In this document: piece after piece, positions 4,347 to 18,475 of the stretch
Layout: each line of letters starts with the position of its first letter
Numbering within the stretch: the stretch's first letter is position 1
From: Dissophora ornata
Lineage: Eukaryota > Mortierellomycota > Mortierellomycetes > Mortierellales > Mortierellaceae
Direction of reading: 5' to 3'
DNA: 18,475 bases
NCBI GenBank assembly: GCA_025201705.1
Contig: MU617231.1
Location: 1-18,475 of the forward strand
Program-made: the position numbers and the translations under genes
Notes under the pieces: generated by a model
Told to the model about the DNA's origin: nothing
The model's database searches: none
What the model saw: the letters and a program-made list of their open reading frames with translations, nothing else

Positions 4347-4603
4347 ACGCTCGCTTTCTCCTCGAACGTTTTTCTTTTTTTCCGGTTTTCTGGTTTCTGG
4401 TTTTTCTTTCTCTCTTTTTTTTTCTCACTTCCACTTTTCACTTGTATCCGTTTATCGTCTTTCAATCAATCAAGCACTTAGCCCCGGATCATAGCCAAGC
4501 AAACACCATTCCCACGCTAGCTCACGTCCTTGCCACCTATTCTTATTTGTCTCATCTTTCTCTTCACCATCGACTCTAACCTTTATTACTGCCACCGCCG
4601 AAC

Positions 4604-5536
4604 ATGAACATGACCATGATGACGACCACGAACCCTATGCCTGCGCCCAAACAGCAAAAGTCCTCTTCCTCTACAGCAGTTCCCAGGAGCGGCCAGGATG
4701 CGCCTCGCCCCTACAAATGTCACATCTGCCCAAAGTCCTTCCACCGCCTCGAACACCAGACCCGCCATATCAGAACCCACACAGGGGAGCGTCCTCACCA
4801 ATGCACGTTCGCGACCTGCCAGAAGCGTTTTTCGCGCTCGGACGAACTCACCAGACACACGCGCATCCACTCGACTACTAAGGCCAAGAAGGAACGTTCC
4901 ACAGCACCACCGTGCCACATCTCAATCAAGCCGTTCATGAAGGTGGTCATGGTCGCATTTGACGGCGAGAATAACCACCAGCGCGCCTCGACTACTTCTC
5001 CCTCAACTTCGCCCTCGCCCTCGCCCTCGCCTCGTATGGTATCCCCAGGCACCTTCAAGCAGCAGCGTCAGCAGAACAGGGCCTCGCCTTACCCGCAGGT
5101 GTCGTATGTCAAGAAAGAGTCTTCCTCACCCGTGATGGCCATGCAGCAGCCGTCTCCTCCTATGACGGCCAATTCCTCGCCAGTGTCACAGCTGATGTCG
5201 GACTCTGAATCCGATGCCTCGGCTTCTCCTCTCTTCACGCCAGAATCCTCGCCTGTGCCTCATGTCTCTTATCACCATGACCAGTACCAACAGCAGAAGT
5301 TTCATCAGCACCAGAGTCAGGCACCGGTGCAGTTCCAGTTTCAAAACACGAGTAGCAGCTTCTATCATCATCAGCATTTCCAGGGCTTTTCGACGTTGCC
5401 TCCTTTGAGTCCTATGCAGAGTCTCAAGCTGACTGCAGCGACCTTGTTGCCACGTCCTGTCTTTGCTCCCTTCCGTTCTTCGCAGGCAGTGACGCTGCCC
5501 CCAATTTCGACTATCATGAACTCCCTGTTCATTTAA
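4604..5536 (+). CDS. creA: CreA/Mig1-like C2H2 zinc-finger transcription factor
   Basis: Single-exon 310-residue nuclear DNA-binding protein. Two adjacent C2H2 fingers sit near the N terminus: finger 1 uses C39, C42, H55 and H59; finger 2 uses C67, C72, H85 and H89, joined by a THTGERPH linker. The recognition helices ([10 protein letters not shown] and [10 protein letters not shown]) are the hallmark pair of Mig1/CreA, which bind GC-rich SYGGRG sites and repress genes for alternative carbon sources when glucose is present. A short basic stretch (TKAKKER) after finger 2 may act as a nuclear localisation signal. The rest is low complexity: Ser/Pro repeats (about 128-145), a Ser/Asp-rich acidic patch, and a Gln/His-rich segment (about 225-260). 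It is shorter than ascomycete CreA (about 400 residues). Zygomycete-type genomes often hold several such paralogues, so the orthology is less sure than the family. Confidence 0.92.
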
Positions 5537-7351: not shown

Positions 7352-8632
7352 TTAGTCGCGATGAGGCTTGAAGGCGTCCTTCTCCTTGCGCAAAAAGTCC
7401 TTGATGGACTTCCCATGCTCACCTGTGATCTTTTCCAAGTCACCCGAGACAAGGCCAGCCTCACCCTTGCGAATGAGCTCGAGCTCATCGAGGAGCAGGT
7501 TGATCGCGGCCTCGTTGGGGACAATGTGATGATGATCGCCATGGTCATCATGGTCGCGTTGATAATCGCCGCTGGTGATAGTAACCGCAGAATACTGGGA
7601 AGAAGAGGCAAGGAGGTCACTACACCATTGACACCAATGACCCTCAGAATCCTGGAAATCATCAGACATGTTCTCGCGCTTCTTGAGCGACTCAAAGTAC
7701 TTCTTCAGCTCCTCGCGCGAGACCTCCTTGACCTCGATTTGTTTGCCAGTAACCTCGCTCAACTCGTGGACGAGACTCTCGGGCGTGATCTTTTGGGGGC
7801 CAGTCAGGGTATAGATTTTGTTCTTGTGCTGGCCGAAGCCGTAGTATTCATTGGAATCAACTTGCTGTTCTTCTTCATTGTCGGCTTGTTGATGTTGCTG
7901 CGGCTGCGGCTGCGAGGGAGAGAATGACAGTTCCTGCTCCTGAGCGGAAGAAATCTCAGCGAGAGATTCACCGTGGCGACACTCATTCACAACGATTGTT
8001 TCGATGGCGCAAACCAGGTCGCACACATCGATCGGCACCATCTCACACTGTTTGGTGGTCGAGATCGGAAATTCGGCGCGTTTCTTGACGATGGGTGCCC
8101 AAAGGAGAAAGCATTGATCAAGAATGCTCGCGCGGAGGATGATGTAACATTCGCAGTGCTGCTTGACGTCCTTTTCAATCTCGTGGTAGGAACTGATCTC
8201 CTTCAGATGCGAGGACGACTCGCCAGCACCCTCGACTGAGATCAGCATACAGGACTTTACGTCCTGGTTCTTCATCGCCTGAAGAACGTTCCTGGCGTAC
8301 TTGGCGCGACGCTCATCCACCTCGGGGATCAGAATCGCGCAGCGGACACCGCGGAGAGCCTTTTCGAGGCTATTTTCATCGTCATAGTCAACCTTCTCGA
8401 GGCGAACGTTTTTGTATTTCTTGAGTCTATCAAGGTGTTCGATCTTGCGGGCCAAACAGACGAGCTGAACGTCCTTGCACTTCTTCTCGAGTTCTTCGGC
8501 AAGGTGGTAGGCGGTACAGCAACCGAGCCAGGAGTCTACGTTAGTGAGGCCGATCCTCGTGATGCTGGCGATGCCAGTCTGCTTGACGATGGCGGCGGGG
8601 GGGCCAGTCTGAGGAATGGAGGAAGACGGCAT
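7352..8632 (-). CDS. NmrA-like NAD(P)-binding protein
   Basis: Single-exon 426-residue protein, ATG at 8632, TAA at 7352-7354. The first ~220 residues follow the NmrA-like atypical short-chain dehydrogenase/reductase fold: an N-terminal strand and Gly-containing turn (about 25-40, near WLGCCTAYHLAEEL), a second strand ending in LVCLARK where the cofactor adenosine is held, then KVDYDDENSLEKALRGV leading into the AILIPEV strand, and later LISVEGAG and ILRASIL. Such proteins usually act as NAD(P) sensors or as reductases in the cytosol or nucleus. The dinucleotide-binding Gly motif is poorly conserved and no Tyr-x3-Lys pair is clear, so a regulatory role is plausible. A Gln/Glu-rich insert (about 240-262) splits the domain from a C-terminal part with a His/Asp cluster (about 358-367). 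Function beyond the fold is unknown. Confidence 0.85.
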   Translation of the reverse strand: MPSSSIPQTGPPAAIVKQTGIASITRIGLTNVDSWLGCCTAYHLAEELEKKCKDVQLVCLARKIEHLDRLKKYKNVRLEKVDYDDENSLEKALRGVRCAILIPEVDERRAKYARNVLQAMKNQDVKSCMLISVEGAGESSSHLKEISSYHEIEKDVKQHCECYIILRASILDQCFLLWAPIVKKRAEFPISTTKQCEMVPIDVCDLVCAIETIVVNECRHGESLAEISSAQEQELSFSPSQPQPQQHQQADNEEEQQVDSNEYYGFGQHKNKIYTLTGPQKITPESLVHELSEVTGKQIEVKEVSREELKKYFESLKKRENMSDDFQDSEGHWCQWCSDLLASSSQYSAVTITSGDYQRDHDDHGDHHHIVPNEAAINLLLDELELIRKGEAGLVSGDLEKITGEHGKSIKDFLRKEKDAFKPHRD

Positions 8633-8768
8633 GGTTGGGATTCAAAATCGATGTTTGGAGAGAAAGAGGTGCAGAAGTTGTGGGTCCGCGTTGTGCGATA
8701 AGGAGTACTGGAGGTGTGAATGGTGAGAGCAAGAAAAAGAAAGGGTGAGGAAGCTGCAATGGCCAGGG

Positions 8769-9829: not shown

Positions 9830-10705
9830 TCAAAAGAGATCCATGCACGCTCCGACATATTGCTTTACGACGTCAGCATGTCGGAGGACCATTTCCTGGT
9901 CGAATGCTTCCTTGGCCTCTGTGATGTCTTTCTGGAACGCTTCCTTCGCGAGCTGTGTTGCATTTGCAGCCCTATCCATTTTCTACGATTGACAGGATGC
10001 CATGATATGAGCGCTGAGCCATCACAAAGCGATCCTTTGCGCATTTTTAGGGATCACATGTTACCTCTGAGCTGGTGGCGATAGTTTGTTGCAAAAGCTG
10101 AAGTCTTTCCAGAGTGGTCGTTGCTGTGTGTGTATATGTGCAGGAGAGATCAAACGATTGATCAGTTGCCATATCCAGGCTGTGTGGAGCTTGTAGTCAT
10201 CGGCGAGTTTCCCGTACCTTTACGACTAGTGCTGTCGATCGCTGCATCTAACGATCCTTTGGCGCTATTAAGCCGCGCTGGTGTATCCCGAAGCATGGGT
10301 ATAGTAGTGTCATTCTTTGCTGTAAGAAAGGTCCGCTTTGTCTAGAGTAGTCCATCCAATGTGGTTGTAGGTACGCCTGTTAGCCAGAATTCACGCAGCC
10401 TTGTAGGTGCTGTTTGGCAGTGCTGTCGAAAGCAGGGAAAGGGGTTGTCGCTCTTACTTCGAACTCTTGAACGAACGTGGTAATGGCTTTGTCGACGTTG
10501 GCCTGTGGGTTACCGAGGATAAGCGAGTACAGTTCGCCGACATCTATGGCAATTGATCATAAGGGAGTGAGCGAGCGACAAAAGAGGCATTTGGCTTTCA
10601 GCGCGCTCTTGCTCGGCTGGCTCGACTAGCTCAGTTGGCAGCATTACCGGCATGCGTCGCGAGGTCTGGCATCATGTGTGGTGGTGGACTAGTCTGGTGT
10701 GGCAT
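9830..10705 (-). CDS. Five-exon short helical protein, tentatively BLOC-1 subunit 5 (Muted)-like
   Basis: Minus-strand exons 10705-10648, 10543-10458, 10314-10218, 10123-10065 and 9982-9830 join in phase through four GT-AG introns (104, 143, 94 and 82 bp) into 150 residues ending at TGA 9830-9832. Two further in-frame ATGs at 10675 and 10672 would give 140- or 139-residue forms. The protein is almost wholly helical and polar, with heptad-like stretches (TTTLERLQLLQQTIATSSE and the C-terminal KEAFQKDITEAKEAFDQEM). Near the N terminus, GELYSLIL followed by TTFVQEFE resembles the Muted domain of BLOC-1 subunit 5, a part of the complex that sorts cargo to lysosome-related organelles; this is from memory of the family and weak. 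The third exon uses an AAG acceptor because the nearby CAG breaks the frame. A transposon lies just upstream, so its promoter may be altered. Confidence 0.62.
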
Positions 10706-10763
10706 GACCTCAATATAGTCGGCTAGGTTCCAGTGGATTCCAGGCGTAAACTACGTCACCGAA
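10705..10763. repeat. Left copy of the imperfect direct repeat flanking the transposon
   Basis: Three collinear blocks match the right copy at 18352-18400 in the same orientation: TGACCT (10705-10710), ATATAGTC (10713-10720) with GGCTA (10721-10725), and the 16-mer AAACTACGTCACCGAA (10748-10763). The left copy has an extra ~22 bp between the second and third blocks. It overlaps the start codon and promoter of the short helical protein gene. Confidence 0.7.
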
Positions 10764-10896
10764 GTTGGTAGTCGTGCGCCCTTCATCAGCGCAATTTCCA
10801 CAGGAAATAAGTTTCCCGGGCTACTGCACTAAACCTAATGGCATAAAATGCCGCGTGGTTACGAACACGCAAAATAATGGGAACTAGTCTTCTAGT
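10764..10896 (-). ncRNA. Candidate guide-RNA (omega RNA) scaffold 3' of the Fanzor gene
   Basis: Fanzor and TnpB guide RNAs usually come from the stretch between the 3' end of the nuclease ORF and the transposon end, with the guide reading into flanking DNA. This 133-bp interval lies in that position and holds closely packed hairpins: GCGTG/CACGC (10853-10857/10866-10870), GGCAT/ATGCC (10840-10844/10848-10852), and TTTCC-aca-GGAAA (10795-10807), whose GGAAA could pair instead with TTTCC at 10812-10816. Placement comes from family knowledge; transcription and the exact ends are not shown. Confidence 0.35.
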
Positions 10897-13800
10897 CTAG
10901 CTATCTGTGTCGTCGCTCGGTGCTTTTCTCTTCTTGCCTGCCGATTTCTTCTTCGGGGTCTCCTTCACAGTATCCGCGCCATCGCTCGGTGTCTTTCTCT
11001 TCTTGCCTGCCGACTTCGTCTTCGGGGTCTCCGGGGTCTGGTTTGTGGGTGCTTTGTTTGAAGGCTCTTCCTTTTCGCCCTGCTGCATCCAAGGGTACAA
11101 GCCATCGGCAGTCACAGGTTGTAGATAGAGCGGTCTCTGCTGATCCTCCAAGTGACCAAGTATGGCGTTGCACATGTTGTGACCAGCCATAACGTCCCGA
11201 TGCATCGGTTTCTTGCAGTTGTCACACCACAACCGGCGAATGCTCTCTGTCTGCGCCACAAATTTATGACAGGTGGGGCATTTCTTAGAGCTGTAGAATT
11301 CATTCACACCTACGACGAGATAGCCCAGTGCTCGCACCTAGAATAAAAAACACCACAAAAGAGATATGTAAGCATCAACCAGCTGGTGTAAAGTACATAC
11401 TTTCAACTGCTCTGTACCTTTTGAATGAAGTATGTCTCAAATGTCCCATGCAAGGAGGAAAGCTTGTTGACACCACTGAATTCGCCCAGACCAATGCCAA
11501 TAACCACCTTGTTCTTGTCATGACGTCTGGCACCCATGCATCCATCAACCATCTCAAGGAGTCTGTCTGCTATGAGCCAATATTCTCGCTCCCTTGCTCG
11601 CTTGGAAAACCACTTGTTTTTTTTTTAGTGACGCCTTGCCGTCATAAGAGCTGTAGAAGTTATTCAGTTGCTTCTCGTACTTGTGCAGATGGTCCAAGTA
11701 CTTGTTGACGTCGGTATCCTCGCCCCGAAGAGGAGGGAGGGAAGACTCAATATCGCTGATACTCCTCAATGGGCTGTGCGCTGTTGTTGTTGGTGTTGTG
11801 GTAGTGGCGGTCATAGTAGCGGTGGTGGTGGCCTCCTCCCCTGGTCCAACCTGTACATTTGCCGCAAGCAGGTCCTCTGGCATATTCAGATCCTTCCTCT
11901 TCTCACCTTCCATCCAACGCCTGTGCTTTAGAGTAGGCTGATAAACAGCCTTCTGCTTAACAGCAAGGTTGTAGTACATTTCAAGTGGTAGGCCCTTGTC
12001 AACCTCTGTTGCTTGCTCCTTCGTGATGCTTCGTCGCCTCTTTCCTCGCTTGTGAGTTTGCTTGTGCCTCAACTTTCCTCCTCGTTTGCCCTTTCTGCCA
12101 CGCTTGCGCTTCTGACCGTCATTGCTGTTATTGCGCCGCTGGATCGGGGGCCCGGGTCGAACTGCACTTGCTCCTACGACAAACGCCTGCCCAAGGTCGA
12201 TGCCAAGAACAGTCACCTCTTGTCGTACTTGGTCAGGAGAGCAGCCCAACAGATCCTGGACATCTTGAGCCGACTTGAACACGTTCCGAACCTCAGTGAG
12301 ATAATAGTCGGCGCCGCCCATGGTAGAGAGAAGACGGTTCGGAAGTCGATCGTCTGGGAAACGCTTGTATCGCACTCCCAACAACTCTTTCTTCTTGTGG
12401 ACAAGAAGTTGTAACTCGTGGCCGTCAGTCTTGATGGAACCGCGCATAATGTAGCCTTTGCCTTTGTATGCTCTTGGGTCGAAGTCCTCCTCTCGAAGTT
12501 CGTTAATGTGGCGCTTGATGTCATCTAAGGAGAGATTGTCGATGGCGGCCTCAAGCCCTGCCCTGTCTCTTTGTCGACGAGTAAGACCATCACTGCCAAC
12601 TTTGGCCACAAGCATCTCTGTTAGGTGACCGAACCTTGTTTTTGGGAGGTGATCTTCGACCAGTGTCGTCTTGTTGAGACTTTCCTCGGGTGTCCTTGGG
12701 AAGGCCTCTTTCATGTCCTGTCGCAGTTTGGTCCTGAGGCAGGGATATCGCGAGTTGAAGAAAAAACCTCCGAGTTCGTATTCAGTGAACGTGACAAATC
12801 CCACCTCCACAGAAGATAGCGGGAATGGCTTCCATGGATTGTGAAGGAGCTTGTTCAGCCTCCAGAAGTTCTCCACAGCCGACAGATTGTAGTTGATTGG
12901 CACTGTAGGAGAGCTTGGATCCCGCTTCTGAATGACCTCGAGCTAAAGTGATAAACAAATGTACCATAATAAAACAGTTGGTATCAAACAGCTCCGATAG
13001 GGTAAATACATAATCAAAAGTCTTCTATAAGAATGACAACAAACCTTATGGTATAAGTTCACTGTCCCATGCTTGAAGTGTTTCTTTAACTCGACATACA
13101 TTTGGCCAGATACAGAGCGTGTCAGCGAGGAGGCGGGAAATCTGTCATCATTCTGGTTCACAGTTCCAGGAAGACCGATCTCAAATGGTTGAAGAATGCC
13201 TTCAAACTCTTTATCTCTCAGACGTTCGACAAGCAGCAGGGCTTTGCTTCCTGGACGGTTCCCAGAGTGCAAAGCGCTCATGAAGGAATGAAGGAAATTG
13301 GCATTTTTGTCGGCGCTATCTCCAGTGCCAGCGTCTTTGTTGCTACTTTCATCAACTGTACCATCACCGGGTTGCTTAAAGTCGTCCTTGGTCAATCGAG
13401 GACAGAGTTGGTCAAGTATCTGTCGATCCTTCTCGGACACAACACTGAAGGAGGAGACCTTGGCCAAATAAATGCTAATAATCTCCTGACATCGTCGTTT
13501 GATAGACCAGGCGTCGCAGACCGCAGCACGGAGACAACCAACCACCTCTTGTGCTGCATCTGGTTGGTTTGGGAGAGCCTTCTTGACGTTGCCTTCGAGA
13601 AGACCCAGTCGGAGGACTGCAAAGGGGTGCTCGTATTCCAGGGCAGTAAGGATCATTTTCTTGTTGGAGGTCGCAGTGAGCTTGTCGGTTCGGCGTCCCT
13701 CAATCATCTTCCTCCGTTTAGCAGCCATGTCGGGAATATCTTGCACTGGCGCGGCAGGGATCTGGTCCGGGACTAATGACTTTGATTCTTTCCACTTGTA

Positions 13801-13953
13801 CTGGAGAAGGGTCTGAGGTCGCTCATGTAGCTTAGCTGTCTGGCGGGTCTTGAAGGAGTAACGTGGTCGATGCTCAGTGATGGGGGGGTCGATACTAGAG
13901 TGGTTGCTGGTGTTCGGAATAGAATTGTGTCGCAATTTCTGATGCCTGTACAT
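10897..13953 (-). CDS. Fanzor (eukaryotic TnpB-like RNA-guided nuclease), frame disrupted once
   Basis: Three exons: 13953 (or acceptor at 13945) to 13045, 12942-11418 and 11337-10897, with phase-0 introns of 102 and 80 bp. A long N-terminal region of no known domain (about 330 residues) precedes the nuclease core. RuvC-I reads VLGIDLGQ (Asp codon 12196-12198), followed by a very basic insert rich in KRKRGRKGKRGG. RuvC-II is the Fanzor1-style VVIGIGLGEFSG, then VVGVNEFYSSKKCPTC with Glu at 11299-11301, the displaced catalytic glutamate. A four-Cys zinc finger (CPTC..CDNC) leads to RuvC-III HRDVMAGHN (Asp 11194-11196). The C terminus has two copies of a Lys-rich repeat and likely nuclear localisation signals. 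Exon 2 is 1,525 nt, one base over a multiple of three, because of an A10 run at 11617-11626; a nine-A version would be open throughout. The gene starts 98 bp after the XPG-like stop and may be spliced to it. Confidence 0.9.
10913..11032 (-). repeat. Tandem repeat in the Fanzor C terminus, 69-bp period
   Basis: Two 51-bp copies (10913-10963 and 10982-11032) differ at only four positions and are spaced by 69 bp, 23 codons. Each encodes an ETPK-type, SAGKKRK-containing basic segment, so the repeat doubles a likely nuclear localisation signal or RNA/DNA-binding tail. Confidence 0.85.
11617..11626 (-). other. A10 homopolymer frameshift in Fanzor exon 2
   Basis: Ten T on + (ten A on the coding strand) separate two halves of the nuclease that lie in different frames: upstream ...SSYDGKASLKK and downstream WFSKRAREREYWLIADRLLE. 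With the present count the upstream frame stops at about 11554, before RuvC-II, the zinc finger and RuvC-III. No intron with matching phase bridges the site. Confidence 0.88.
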
Positions 13954-14054
13954 TTTGAATATGAGAGTGGGATAGAGAGTTTAATCATATGCTCATAGGA
14001 CTTTCAAAAAAAAAAAGGTCAGAAAAAAGGTCAAAAAGAAGGTATTATTTTTAC
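13946..14054 (-). other. Candidate intron joining the XPG-like and Fanzor ORFs
   Basis: On the minus strand a GTAAAAAT donor starts at 14054, two bases into the Arg codon that precedes the XPG-like stop. A TGTACAG acceptor ends at 13946, inside the third codon of the Fanzor ORF. Both sides are phase 2, so splicing removes both the stop and the Fanzor ATG and keeps the frame. The 109-bp length fits the other introns here; a pyrimidine tract and a CTGAC branch-like site lie inside. Confidence 0.5.
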
Positions 14055-15252
14055 CGTTTCTCAGCAGCCATGGTTTTTTGCCTCTCTTTGAGCTGCAAGC
14101 GAGCATCGTCAAACTCCTTTAGGAGGCGATGGTAGTGGTCACTGCTGTCTGTCTGTTGTCCACCAGGAGTCGTGATCGGTGTTTGGGTAAGACCAATGAA
14201 CACACGCAAACTGTCATCAAACGTTGTCAGTGCCGCGTTTTTCAACATCACACTCTCAAGTCCGAGATAATCGGACACAATAGCAGCCACATCTATAAGC
14301 AGAAAAAAAGAAAAAAAATTAGAATCCCGAAGAGCACTCAAGTGAGATGATGAGCAGTCTGTGTGTTTGTGTGTGTGTGTGTCTGTACCTTGGCCTGCTG
14401 TAATATCCTTGATCAGCTCATAGTTGGTGCAGATACCCAGAGTTGAAATGTTCTTATTGTAGTCGTTTCCTGTCACGACACACAGGGCGGTGAGCTGATC
14501 CCTTGTTAGGCCAAGGGATAGCAGAACCTCCTGCACGTGGTAGCAGTGGACGTTTGCTCGGGCCCCAAACCCAACGACACGCCATATCGTTTGGACTTGC
14601 TGATACGCGAAAAAGTCGCCATCACGTGATGCGACAGCATCTCCAGGTCCACATACTTTCGCGATTTCAACATCGGCTTCTGCTGGGCAGTCGATAACAC
14701 TCCAACCCCGGCTGCGGAGAAACACTGAGCAGGCTTTTTTTTCTTCGGAAGACCAGCGGTAACAGCCTCTCAGAGGCTTTCGAACTTTAGCAAAGTGTTG
14801 TTTCTTTATTCTCTGACCGTTGGTTGTTCTCTCACAGAATACGTCAAGAGCTGTCTGAGCTTGTTGTTGAGCCTTCACGCGTGCCATTTGCCGGCTGTTT
14901 TGTGTGGCGAGTTTCTCCTGGCACTGTTGACCGTCGATATAAATCACAAGGTTGCTCTTGTTGCCTATTTGAAGGCGGGAAGAGAACGAGCTTAGTTCTC
15001 CTGTGACGAAACTTTCCATTCTTAAAACTACACGCCTACAGAAACTAGCATACCAATCTTAGCAATGACTGACTCCAAAATCACGTTTGCAACGTCCGCT
15101 TTGTTGTTGGAGTACGCGTGCACAATAGTCGAGAAAAACGCCCCAAGCAAGTCAAGATGGATGGTTTTGGCGGTTTCGAGTTTGAATTGTAAACCAGGAG
15201 TGGGTTCGATTTTCTTTTTCTTAAGCCATGACCAAAGCCCTTGGATGCCCAT
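14051..15252 (-). CDS. XPG/FEN1-family structure-specific nuclease within the transposon
   Basis: Exons 15252-15054, 15000-14389 and 14292 to the stop at 14051-14053 (or to a donor at 14055). Introns are 53 bp and 96 bp; the second is stop-free and in frame, so its retention would only lengthen the protein. The start MGIQGLWSWLKKKK is the classic XPG N-domain opening. All acids of the FEN1 active site have counterparts: the Asp in IHLDLLGAFF, the Asp in YIDGQQ, the Glu and Asp in PAEADVEIA, the two Asp in ASRDGDFFAYQ, and the Asp of GNDYN in the helix-turn region (SLGLTRDQLTALCVVTGNDY). The family cuts 5' flaps and bubble or branch structures. At about 350 residues it is FEN1-sized but lacks a clear PCNA-binding tail. 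Earlier upstream ATGs exist on this frame (to 15426) but lack family similarity. Host repair genes of this family are not usually carried by transposons. Confidence 0.87.
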
Positions 15253-15547
15253 GGTGATAACGCGTTGATGGAGAAAAGGGATACAATTATCGATGTGTGG
15301 TTGTGAGATTGTGTGAATAATTTGAGAGTTGGGGTGTGGGAATGGAGAATTGAATAATTTGAGAGTTGTGGTGTGAGAATGAAGAAAGAGACAACATTGA
15401 ACATTTGCAGCTATTTTTGCCACCATGTGGGGAGAGAAGTTTAAAAAATGAATATCCGCTTAAGGGCCACATCCTCAATGTCCAGAAGAGGGAATAGGCT
15501 TTATTCAATCCGTCGTTTAACCGTTTATTCCTTCTCATCTTCCAGAG
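15253..15547. promoter_or_regulatory. Bidirectional promoter of the transposon genes
   Basis: The XPG-Fanzor unit (-) and the MULE transposase (+) start 295 bp apart and face away from each other, so this interval must drive both. No canonical TATA box was seen in either direction. It contains the tandem repeat at 15314-15384. Confidence 0.6.
15314..15384. repeat. Tandem direct repeat in the transposon promoter
   Basis: Two ~34-bp copies starting at 15314 and 15351 (37-bp period) share TGAATAATTTGAGAGTTG and a GGTGTG..GAATG tail with about three mismatches. They are placed midway between the divergent genes and could be binding sites for a regulator or for the transposase. Confidence 0.8.
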
Positions 15548-18315
15548 ATGAGTGGACTCAAAGTTAAGGACATATTCATTGATCCCAACGATTTTAAACC
15601 TCGAGATCTTGCTGTGCCATTCTCATTCCCCCGCGACCAGGAGAGATGGATGGTTAGATTCACTCCTGAGGATTTTAAAACTTTCTGGTTCCAGGAGCAA
15701 ACCGCAATTCAATTTGTTCCTTGTTCTGAGCAAGGGCCTAATCGCAACATTCGAAATCAGTCTGGCGACACGCTCCTCCCTTTCTATATCACTGTTCCGG
15801 GCAACAAGGGCAGACCGAAGACCTATGACTGGAGTTTCCGTTTTCAATGTAGAAGACACGGTTCTCCCAGAACATTAGCGATCAATCGGCCATCCATTGG
15901 CACTGGGTGCCCAGTAGAGATCCGTCTAAAGAAACCGGTTGGTATGGATGCTGTACTTGTGGATTACCGATGGCAGCACAACCATGACCTTTCAGCCAAG
16001 ACCTTGTCAAATATGCCCATGGGCGCCAATGAGCGCAACTGGATCAAGTTGAAGGTAGCCGAGGGCAACGACTGGAAGGGAATCCGAGCCTTACTGCGAA
16101 TGGATGACGACTCAATGACCGAGGTATTATTTTTATGATGGCGTCTTATGAAAAACCGTCGTCAAACAACTTCTCATTTACAGTGCAATCAATCCAACAA
16201 ATAGATCGAAGAAAAGAAACATGGAGGCACAGTTCCTCCTGCATTTTCCATGTCATATGAGGATGTGAGGCAGACTGTGTATCGTCAACGCACAAAGCAC
16301 TCTCGAAAGTCAGCAAATCCGACATTGAGTGTGCACACCTGGATTGAAACAATAAAACAAAAGGGAGGCAAAGGGATCTTTATTGACGGGATTGCCGGAG
16401 AGGAGGATCTCTATATGTTTGGCTGGAGTACAAAGTTCCAGCTTAAGGTACAGTCATTCAGTGATTGTTTTTTTGCTGTGAGAAAAAATGCGTCACTCTG
16501 CTTGCAACCTGTTTCTCATATAATGTTTTCTGAAGGTAATGGGCAACAATAACAAAATCGTGTGCATGGACTCTACACACAAAACGGTCAAGTCGTTGAA
16601 ACCCGACCCCAAAAACGAGAAGGCGTTCGCATCCGCGTATTTATTCACTCTTTTGGTGAAAGATATACATACCCAAATAGGGGTACCAATTGGATTTATG
16701 GTCTGCAATTCCGAGTCAACGTAAGTTCAACTCCTTGTAAGAATGCACTTATTTAATACCTTCTTCGAAAGGCACAGATAAGGTACTGTCAAGGTTGCAC
16801 TGAACAGTTGTTAATATTCCTTCGTTCTTACTCATGAACTTTAATAGGAGTGTTCTCAGGACATGGTTGACTTGGGTCAAAGAAGAGTGCGGCCTCTGCC
16901 CTTCCAAGTTTATGGTGGACTGTTCTGTTGTCGAGACCGAAGCTCTTAAGCAAGTGTTTGGTTTGTTGGAGATCTTCTACTGCAAGTTTCATGTCGGACA
17001 GGCTTGGGAAAGGAAAATGAGGGATCTTCACAGTGTCAGTACAGTTTGAGTAAACAAAAAACTGTTTGTGATAGTCAAAACCATTCATCCTCTAATATTT
17101 TCCTATTGAATTCCCTTTGGACTCCAGGTTTCGGAAAGTAATGTCATGCGAGGACCATTGAGTAAAGTTCTAAACGCATCGTCCGCCGAGGACCAAAGAC
17201 TAAGTTGGGAGGCGTTCGAAAAGACATTTTCACTCTCTGCCAGAAATTTTATAATCTATCTCAAGAAATGGATGGTACCAGAAAGACTTGTGAGATGGGG
17301 CCTATATTTTCGATCAGTAAGTGCAACAGGCAACTTGAGCACCACAACAGTATACTACATGAAGATGTCTGCTCTGCTTACTTTCATTTTTATTTTGGTG
17401 GCTATGTTAGGACTACCAGCACAACGATACCAACAATTTGGTTGAGAGTTGGCATAAGAAACTGAAGTCACAGTACCTGGGAAGCGAGCGCAATTTACGT
17501 CCAGATGACCTTCTGTACCTTTTGCAAGGAGTTGTTAATATTGACTTCAGGACACTATACCACAAGAGACTCAACAACATGATAGCACATCAGCTGTCAT
17601 CCTACGACGCAAAGGAGAAAGCGAAGGCAGATAGTGTGGACTTTATCACTGCTCAAAGTATGGTGGCACCAAACACAGATAAAAAAAAGGTACTGTCACT
17701 CTTGAGAATGGGCATTTTGCTATCAAAGTCCCATCTTGTTAACAAACTGCTTTCTATCGTGCTTAGTTCAAGGTCCAGTCCTTTGCAGTAACCACCGGAA
17801 TCAAGGCCACATATGACGTACGCACGGATGAGGGATTTACCATAGTTGTTGCCTGTCGATGCAGCTACTACGTGCGACATCAGACCCCATGCAGGCATAT
17901 GTATGTGACTGCAAGGGTTTACAAGGGTATGGATATCTCATACCATGGCGAACCTTATGAGCTTAACCGCTTGCAAGAGCAAGCAAAACAGAATGATGTT
18001 AATTTTTCATCGGATTCAACAATGCCGCCATCCTTGGAGCAGACACTCCCACAGTCAATCCTCCTTCTACTTCAAAGGCAAAGAGCCGACAAGGCGGAGC
18101 AGATAAGGATAGCTAGAGAGAAAGAAAAAGAGCAAGAGATACAGGATCTTGAGGCTGATCTGAAGGGTATGGTTTCGGAAATCGTCAAGGCTGCCAGCCC
18201 AGCCAAAAGAAAATGTACAATCGAGTACTTTCAAACCACAGTTGCAGGAGTAAGGAAAGTGCTACATGAGATAAAGGGACTCAACACCATCCAAGCCGGA
18301 CACAGATGTCAATGA
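15548..18315 (+). CDS. Mutator-like (MULE) transposase, seven exons
   Basis: Exons 15548-16123, 16205-16447, 16536-16720, 16848-17034, 17128-17316, 17411-17689 and 17767-18315 splice in phase through GT-AG introns of 81, 88, 127, 93, 94 and 77 bp to 735 residues. In order: a FAR1/WRKY-GCM1-like zinc finger (C101, C121, H144, H146; WQHNHDL), a spacer, and the MULE catalytic core with D285 (VCMDSTHKT), D359 (MVDCS), the C380-x2-H383 motif (YCKFHVGQAW) and TNNLVESWH (E472 near the expected third acid). A SWIM zinc finger follows (CRC at 583-585, CRH at 595-597), then a charged coiled coil (about 640-690). It binds element ends and performs cut-and-paste transposition in the nucleus. No stop or frame break was found, so it may still be active. 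The donor of intron 4 is GTCAGT, weaker than the rest, and intron 1 skips a nearer acceptor that would lead to a stop. Confidence 0.92.
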
Positions 18316-18351
18316 TAATCCTTATTTCCAACCAATATTTCGGCCAATGAG

Positions 18352-18400
18352 TGACCTGGAATGATGATATAGTCGACTCGGCTAAAACTACGTCACCGAA
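18352..18400. repeat. Right copy of the imperfect direct repeat flanking the transposon
   Basis: Matches the left copy (10705-10763) in the same orientation: TGACCT (18352-18357), ATATAGTC (18367-18374), GGCTA (18380-18384) and the 16-mer AAACTACGTCACCGAA (18385-18400). It begins 37 bp after the transposase stop codon. Confidence 0.7.
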
Positions 18401-18409
18401 ATTCGTGTG

Positions 18410-18431
18410 AAGGGCCAACAACTCGGCCCTT
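18410..18431. repeat. Short inverted repeat (hairpin) at the right border
   Basis: AAGGGCC (18410-18416) and GGCCCTT (18425-18431) form a 7-bp perfect stem with an 8-nt loop. It lies just outside the direct repeat and may mark the transposon terminus or be host sequence. Confidence 0.6.
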
Positions 18432-18475
18432 TCTTCCGCCTTGCTTCCTCCGCCTGCTTTCGCTTCTTCGCATCC
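18432..18475. other. Right flank, short, no gene assignable
   Basis: The last 44 bp are TTCC/GCC-rich. One minus-strand frame reads as a Lys/Arg/Glu/Ala-rich run, which could be the edge of a host coding region, but too little is present to decide. Confidence 0.3.

Follow-up and report, generated by a model that had tools for sequence, protein, structure and literature searches.

Contig MU617231.1 of the fungus Dissophora ornata (assembly GCA_025201705.1) raises the question of what a Fanzor and an XPG/FEN1-type nuclease do side by side in a Mutator-like element (MULE). The window analysed here is this entire contig (18475 bases), designated C661 among the 968 contigs of the 31.4 Mb genome. 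The XPG and Fanzor frames occupy its minus strand at 10.9-15.3 kb, and a MULE-like transposase lies on the plus strand at 15.5-18.3 kb. A preliminary description of the window took these for three separate nuclease genes. We found instead that the XPG and Fanzor parts are predicted to form one gene, in frame across an intron at 14054-13946, and they are very probably encoded as one fused protein. The statement as a whole, that a MULE-type transposon uses this XPG-Fanzor fusion for cutting the empty donor site and for resecting the ends so that the element is copied back, is given about an even chance.

The first relative found, P0001, is an Entomortierella lignicola gene model with 55% identity, in which the XPG part continues into the Fanzor N-terminus. 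Aligned on the window with introns allowed, P0001 gave three in-frame introns, the third of which connects the two halves; the junction acceptor was 13907 with this query, likewise in frame. The query that first found P0001 still contained a 26-nt first XPG intron, a reading that was replaced by the 89-nt intron of the P0001 alignment. Using our own spliced aligner, the window fusion was compared with 18 regions of the same genome, and P0003, a full-length query of 1254 amino acids from Mortierella sp. AD010, with 19 regions. With P0003 the junction was spanned in 18 of the 19 regions, and a phase-2 intron was placed at the same position in 11 of these 18. The XPG stop codon begins at the second base of the intron donor in six of 17 copies (C661, C160, C237, C112, C123 and C824). 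In six of 17 (C237, C141, C112, C20, C556 and C295), the 55-123 codons that lie open ahead of the Fanzor block contain no ATG; two of these copies, C141 and C295, share 96% identity in their Fanzor parts. Both halves are also present in seven database gene models from six named Mortierellaceae, namely P0001, P0003, P0004 (E. chlamydospora), P0005 (Benniella), P0006 (Dissophora ornata; only the tail of XPG, plus Fanzor), P0007 (Mortierella sp. AD010, named Rad2 nuclease) and P0008 (Linnemannia zychae). P0006 is 86% identical to the C298 model over 54% of it, and a further protein, P0002, which comes from a short contig, contains XPG only. The predicted fusion is retained among copies that share about 40% identity and occurs in six named species. 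The C141 copy was free of stop codons and frameshifts with both queries. C123 showed no stop with either query and no frameshift with P0003, and C298 was clean with the window fusion and had one frameshift with P0003; the other fusion copies carry lesions or are truncated.

XPG and Fanzor might instead be two adjacent separate genes, merged by annotators and aligner alike: in the window each half is open in a frame of its own, and an ATG lies close before the Fanzor frame, as it does in nine of the 17 copies, the window included. Several further observations weigh against the fusion and its proposed use. The junction intron was not given at the common place in seven of the 18 copies (P0003 query), the C21 fusion has one in-frame stop codon with the same query, and the window copy itself changes frame at a T-run (11617-11626). 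Among eight Fanzor regions with no XPG match, C532 runs off the contig, C549 and C824 retain the XPG end, and C292, C787, C219 and C799 start inside the Fanzor part, and C577 starts at the junction, so that Fanzor copies without XPG may exist. In addition, a fused query tends to yield fused answers, and the database fusions are predicted gene models. The search for relatives accepted only proteins of 0.55-1.75 times the fusion length and scored a list of limited size, which favours fused proteins, and the frequency of fusion cannot be read from it. Because a fused query invites fused answers, we placed the weight on the recurring place and phase of the junction, the missing ATGs and the annotators' own models. 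The recurrent junction intron, the stop codons inside its donor, the six Fanzor frames with no ATG and the seven gene models with both halves all speak against two genes, and this alternative is highly improbable.

The XPG half is likely a 5' nuclease of the XPG/FEN1/EXO1 type, as predicted from its sequence. The XPG nuclease of the preliminary description was borne out by the XPG I-region profile (XPG_I, PF00867), which matched with E 2e-8 and 35 bits against a cut-off of 24.9, and by the MGIQGLW start at 15252. The same profile was found in four of five copy models at E up to 0.1, with C298 scoring 24.4 against the cut-off of 24.9; against the assignment, Pfam did not find it in P0003 or P0004. 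The seven acidic metal-binding residues (FEN1 numbering) are kept in all 12 proteins that reach them (ten with all seven, two starting after the first), and one is changed, with Asp in place of FEN1 E160. In the predicted structure the XPG half adopts the XPG/FEN1/EXO1 fold, and the modelled N-domain resembles FEN1 and EXO1 almost equally (scores of 21.8 and 22.5, respectively); the structure search of the fused model tests mainly this half, as confidence is mixed or low beyond residue 300. Sequence searches of PDB with the fusion returned Rad2/FEN1 and, weakly, the TnpB-like protein L79, and no chain labelled Fanzor was among the matches listed. FEN1, EXO1 and XPG/RAD2 are stand-alone host repair enzymes, whereas here such a nuclease is half of a predicted fusion, with about 14% identity.

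The Fanzor on the minus strand was upheld as well. PF07282 (TnpB-like C-terminus with a C4 zinc ribbon, Cas12f1-like TNB) matched the window above its cut-off with E 1.8e-10, all five copy models, and P0003 with E 2.9e-14. Of the reported RuvC-I, -II and -III motifs and zinc finger, the DLG of RuvC-I, the four Cys of the finger and the last D are present, whereas in the assembly the piece with RuvC-II lies in another frame. A Glu six residues before the finger, the RuvC glutamate (Ealt), occurs in all six proteins that reach it. Both this position and DPG at RuvC-I, the latter as near exclusive in Fanzors, have been described (PMC10711439). Here RuvC-I reads DLG in seven of nine proteins, DPG in one and DGG in one, with the catalytic Asp itself kept. 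Because DLG and not DPG prevails, we classify the protein as Fanzor-type with a deviating motif. Recent Fanzor pairs gave ratios of nonsynonymous to synonymous substitution rates of 0.3-0.6, which counts against the proposed use of the protein. A repeat spaced by 69 bases at 10902-11032 (62 nt, 87% alike) encodes a repeated lysine-rich KSAGKKRK at the Fanzor C-terminus.

The preliminary description also reported a complete, divergently oriented MULE transposase. Completeness held, since the frame runs through seven exons and six introns to 735 amino acids with no stop or frame break. The family match was less firm: the PF10551 MULE domain gave E 0.0035 and 18.2 bits in the window against a cut-off of 27.6, and the best relative, at 24.9 bits, is also under the cut-off. 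Candidate D, D and E residues were read by eye in DSTH, FMVDCS and NNLVESWH. SWIM was above its cut-off in the relatives P0009, P0012 and P0015 and was not among the Pfam matches listed for the window. Nine relatives were found, the eight named ones from species of Linnemannia, Mortierella, Entomortierella and Gamsiella; the best, P0009 (Linnemannia elongata), is full-length, and its structure model is poor, with a mean predicted local distance difference test score of 48.8. P0014 (Entomortierella lignicola BGZ46_001844), a model of 1093 amino acids, is partly like the transposase and is perhaps a merged annotation.

The three parts recur together in the genome. XPG matches form 39 clusters, of which 16 are followed by a Fanzor match in the same orientation and 10 have a MULE match divergent from them within 4 kb, against chance expectations of about 0.7 and 0.5; four clusters (C661, C160, C20 and C21) have both, so that the trio proposed in the preliminary description is found at other loci in the same order. 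These counts were made from the best 90 of 168 Fanzor matches (the 78 weaker ones left out), all 59 MULE matches and all 44 XPG matches. Ordinary host nucleases presumably account for some of the clusters, and several sit at contig ends. In C21, the ends, read outward, form an identical 25-bp inverted repeat with a score of 50, which none of 500 control windows reached (highest 39), and the repeats are flanked on both sides by the 9-bp duplication TCCAACCAT, a length within the 8-11 bp range of MULE target-site duplications. The MULE, XPG and Fanzor parts all lie between this one pair of repeats, in an element of 7332 bases (C21:22542-29873). For this one copy, as judged by its sequence, it is settled that the three belong to one element.

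The right boundary of the window element is less clear. The preliminary description had the element end at 18405; the terminal motif at 18387 faces away from the transposase, and 18475 is the last base of the contig. Inverted repeats at both window ends were considered and rejected, as the motif at 10750 and that at 18387 are in direct orientation. The sequence right of the MULE matched the left end no better than did 717 of 2000 random windows. The motif was found at the MULE end of only C429 among nine other loci, a point against the favoured reading. In 18376-18475, just right of the candidate duplication (Table 1), the terminal motif is oriented like the MULE-side end of C429, and a second element possibly abuts there, cut by the contig end. 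In C461 (locus L005), the motif is in tandem after the Fanzor end, two copies lying 39 bases apart near locus positions 1928 and 1967.

Table 1. Positions of the predicted element features in the window
Feature	Position	Strand	Basis
Candidate 9-bp target-site duplication ATATAGTCG, left copy	10713..10721	.	both copies unique in window
Terminal hairpin 2, UUCG loop; 3' arm is the terminal motif	10743..10781	-	
Putative guide-RNA scaffold	10743..10896	-	fold of 10728-10899
Hairpin 1, after Fanzor stop	10853..10870	-	
Fusion, last exon: Glu before finger, zinc finger, RuvC-III D	10900..11337	-	PF07282 E 1.8e-10
Fanzor RuvC-II piece, frame differs from exon 5	11418..11616	-	
A-run on coding strand (T-run on plus strand); frame changes here in window copy	11617..11626	-	
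Fusion exon 5: middle Fanzor part with RuvC-I DLG; frame end approximate	11627..12942	-	frame has 71 own-genome matches
Fusion exon 4: N-terminal Fanzor part	13045..13945	-	tblastn to other copies; P0003 alignment
Predicted junction intron, phase 2; apparent XPG stop codon inside donor site	13946..14054	-	P0003 alignment
Fusion exon 3: end of XPG half	14055..14292	-	spliced alignments
Fusion exon 2: XPG core, acidic active-site residues, XPG I-region	14389..14964	-	Pfam XPG_I E 2e-8; P0001 alignment
Fusion exon 1: start codon and XPG N-terminus (MGIQGLW...)	15054..15252	-	spliced alignment of P0001 and P0003
MULE-like transposase, seven exons	15548..18315	+	relative P0009, 724 amino acids, 47% identity over 98%
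Transposase exons 1-4	15548-16123, 16205-16447, 16536-16720, 16848-17034	+	
Transposase exons 5-7	17128-17316, 17411-17689, 17767-18315	+	
Candidate 9-bp target-site duplication ATATAGTCG, right copy	18367..18375	.	right inverted repeat not significant

Ordinary neighbours in the window are a tRNA-Ser (702-783) and, at 4580-5536 and 7352-8641, a C2H2 zinc-finger protein and an NAD(P)-binding NmrA-like protein.

The Fanzor end of the element likely gives rise to a guide RNA, as suggested by its predicted folding. The fold of 10728-10899 had a z-score of -3.40, and none of 200 shuffles was equally stable. After the Fanzor stop, hairpin 1 has the form GUGUG-loop-CACAC in many copies. Both sides change in three of its six pairs (12 sequences), and its pairing and covariation scores were reached by none of 500 shuffles. 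In hairpin 2 both sides change in four of 20 pairs (eight sequences), and the covariation score was reached by two of 500 shuffles. Folded alone, hairpin 2 was far more stable than its shuffles in four of seven copies (z-scores of -3.6 to -7.6) and moderately so in C123 (-2.5), and was not clearly stable in the window (-1.28) or C532 (-0.77). Some points count against these hairpins. For hairpin 1, the number of pairs with two-sided change was reached by 64 of 500 shuffles and the number of pair types by 439 of 500, and the hairpin sets were picked by eye, with copies having no clear hairpin excluded (for example C141, C295, C461, C283, C635, C112, C7 and C709). No Rfam match was found in 10600-11000. 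The RNA of SpuFz1 originates from the corresponding place (PMC10432273). At nine scattered loci of the same genome (L090, L093, L094, L097, L098, L102, L106, L107 and L109), element ends that are near-identical to one another carry both hairpins. These loci may be elements without a gene, comparable to the S. punctatus ghost loci; the 320-base stretches are too short to tell whether a protein gene follows further in.

The preliminary description proposed a joint mechanism of Fanzor and XPG. It missed the apparent union of both nucleases in one polypeptide, which makes such a mechanism more likely. In the mechanism that we favour, the transposase would excise the element, and a cut-and-paste element would lose ground whenever end joining sealed the donor gap. 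The Fanzor half, with an RNA read from the Fanzor end of the element into the flank, would cut element-free sites. The tethered XPG half would degrade 5' ends or flaps, so that 3' tails would be exposed and end joining discouraged, and recombination with a copy still holding the element would restore it. That the fusion is used in this way, for donor-site cutting and resection toward copy-back, we consider slightly less than evenly probable. TnpB cuts element-free sites in plasmids (PMC11870625), SpuFz1 cuts leave 5' overhangs (PMC10432273), and fusions of EXO1(1-352) and Cas9 in both orders, best with C-terminal EXO1, bias repair toward templated copying (PMC11107001). On the other hand, blunt ends or 3' overhangs result from cutting by other Fanzors (PMC10432273), which argues against this use.

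Two other functions of a real fusion were weighed. In one, the XPG half would serve insertion by trimming the flaps or gaps that the MULE transposase leaves where the element newly inserts, and the Fanzor half would find the DNA or keep hold of it. FEN1-type enzymes cut flaps, the N-domain fits FEN1 about as well as EXO1, and C21 holds transposase and fusion in one element. However, the Fanzor catalytic residues, needless for a mere locator, are kept, and host FEN1 is expected to do such work already; we regard this function as unlikely. In the other, the XPG half would process RNA or other partners, for instance by trimming the guide RNA from the Fanzor end. This is still less probable, as the DNA enzymes EXO1 and FEN1 match with higher scores, and SpuFz1 obtains its RNA without such a domain (PMC10432273). 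Should donor-site cutting and resection be the function, a FEN1/EXO1-type nuclease in the same chain would point to repair-pathway choice as the purpose for which eukaryotic transposons retain Fanzors. Tentatively, the fusion in Mortierellaceae MULEs might then be a natural exonuclease editor and the first case of an RNA-guided nuclease joined in one chain to a resection enzyme of its own. Guided cuts at element-free sites would be steered from end joining toward copying the transposon in, and a cut-and-paste element would thereby become self-restoring and gene-drive-like. A natural pairing of this kind parallels the engineered EXO1-Cas9, which makes it a candidate source of tools favouring copying over end joining, for which it would supply natural variants.

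No paper combining Fanzor and XPG was found in the openly licensed literature searched; most subscription journals lie outside this scope, and priority is unproven. In the available parts of three Fanzor papers the wording of a fusion is absent ('fused' in PMC3627910, 'fusion' in PMC10711439, both in PMC10432273), and PMC11071296, as far as available, calls viral proteins "Fanzor flap endonuclease homologs" in passing, with no fusion described. Fanzors carried by elements of Mutator type are already known from the available parts of PMC3627910, as is a viral Mariner element with a Fanzor and a separate nuclease next to it. The former, Fanzor1 in the MuDr-type elements ROr-4, PBl-3 and MCi-4 of Mucorales, resemble our element in the Mutator-type host element, the early-diverging fungi, the inverted repeats and the 9-bp duplication, whereas they are said to encode no MuDR transposase, and an XPG domain or fusion is not mentioned in those parts. 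The latter, PGv-1, likewise combines a transposase, a further nuclease and Fanzor1 in one element, but its nuclease is a separate GIY-YIG protein and its transposase belongs to another superfamily, whereas here the nuclease is of XPG type and predicted to be fused.

The MULE-Mucorales clade (PMC6446971) shares a Mutator-type element in Mucoromycota with a SWIM finger, which here is above cut-off in relatives of the transposase; it is listed with one open reading frame, 40-bp repeats and a 10-bp duplication, whereas here there are two genes and, in C21, a perfect 25-bp repeat with a 9-bp duplication. SpuFz1 of Spizellomyces punctatus (PMC10432273) is likewise an RNA-guided nuclease in a fungal transposon, with 5' overhangs and many gene-less elements that retain ends, but it is a single open reading frame with neither transposase nor XPG half, unlike the window element. 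The exonuclease editors (PMC11107001) also join an RNA-guided nuclease and an EXO1-type 5' nuclease in one chain. They are man-made, use Cas9 and work best with C-terminal EXO1, whereas the predicted natural fusion uses a Fanzor and carries its nuclease at the N-terminus.
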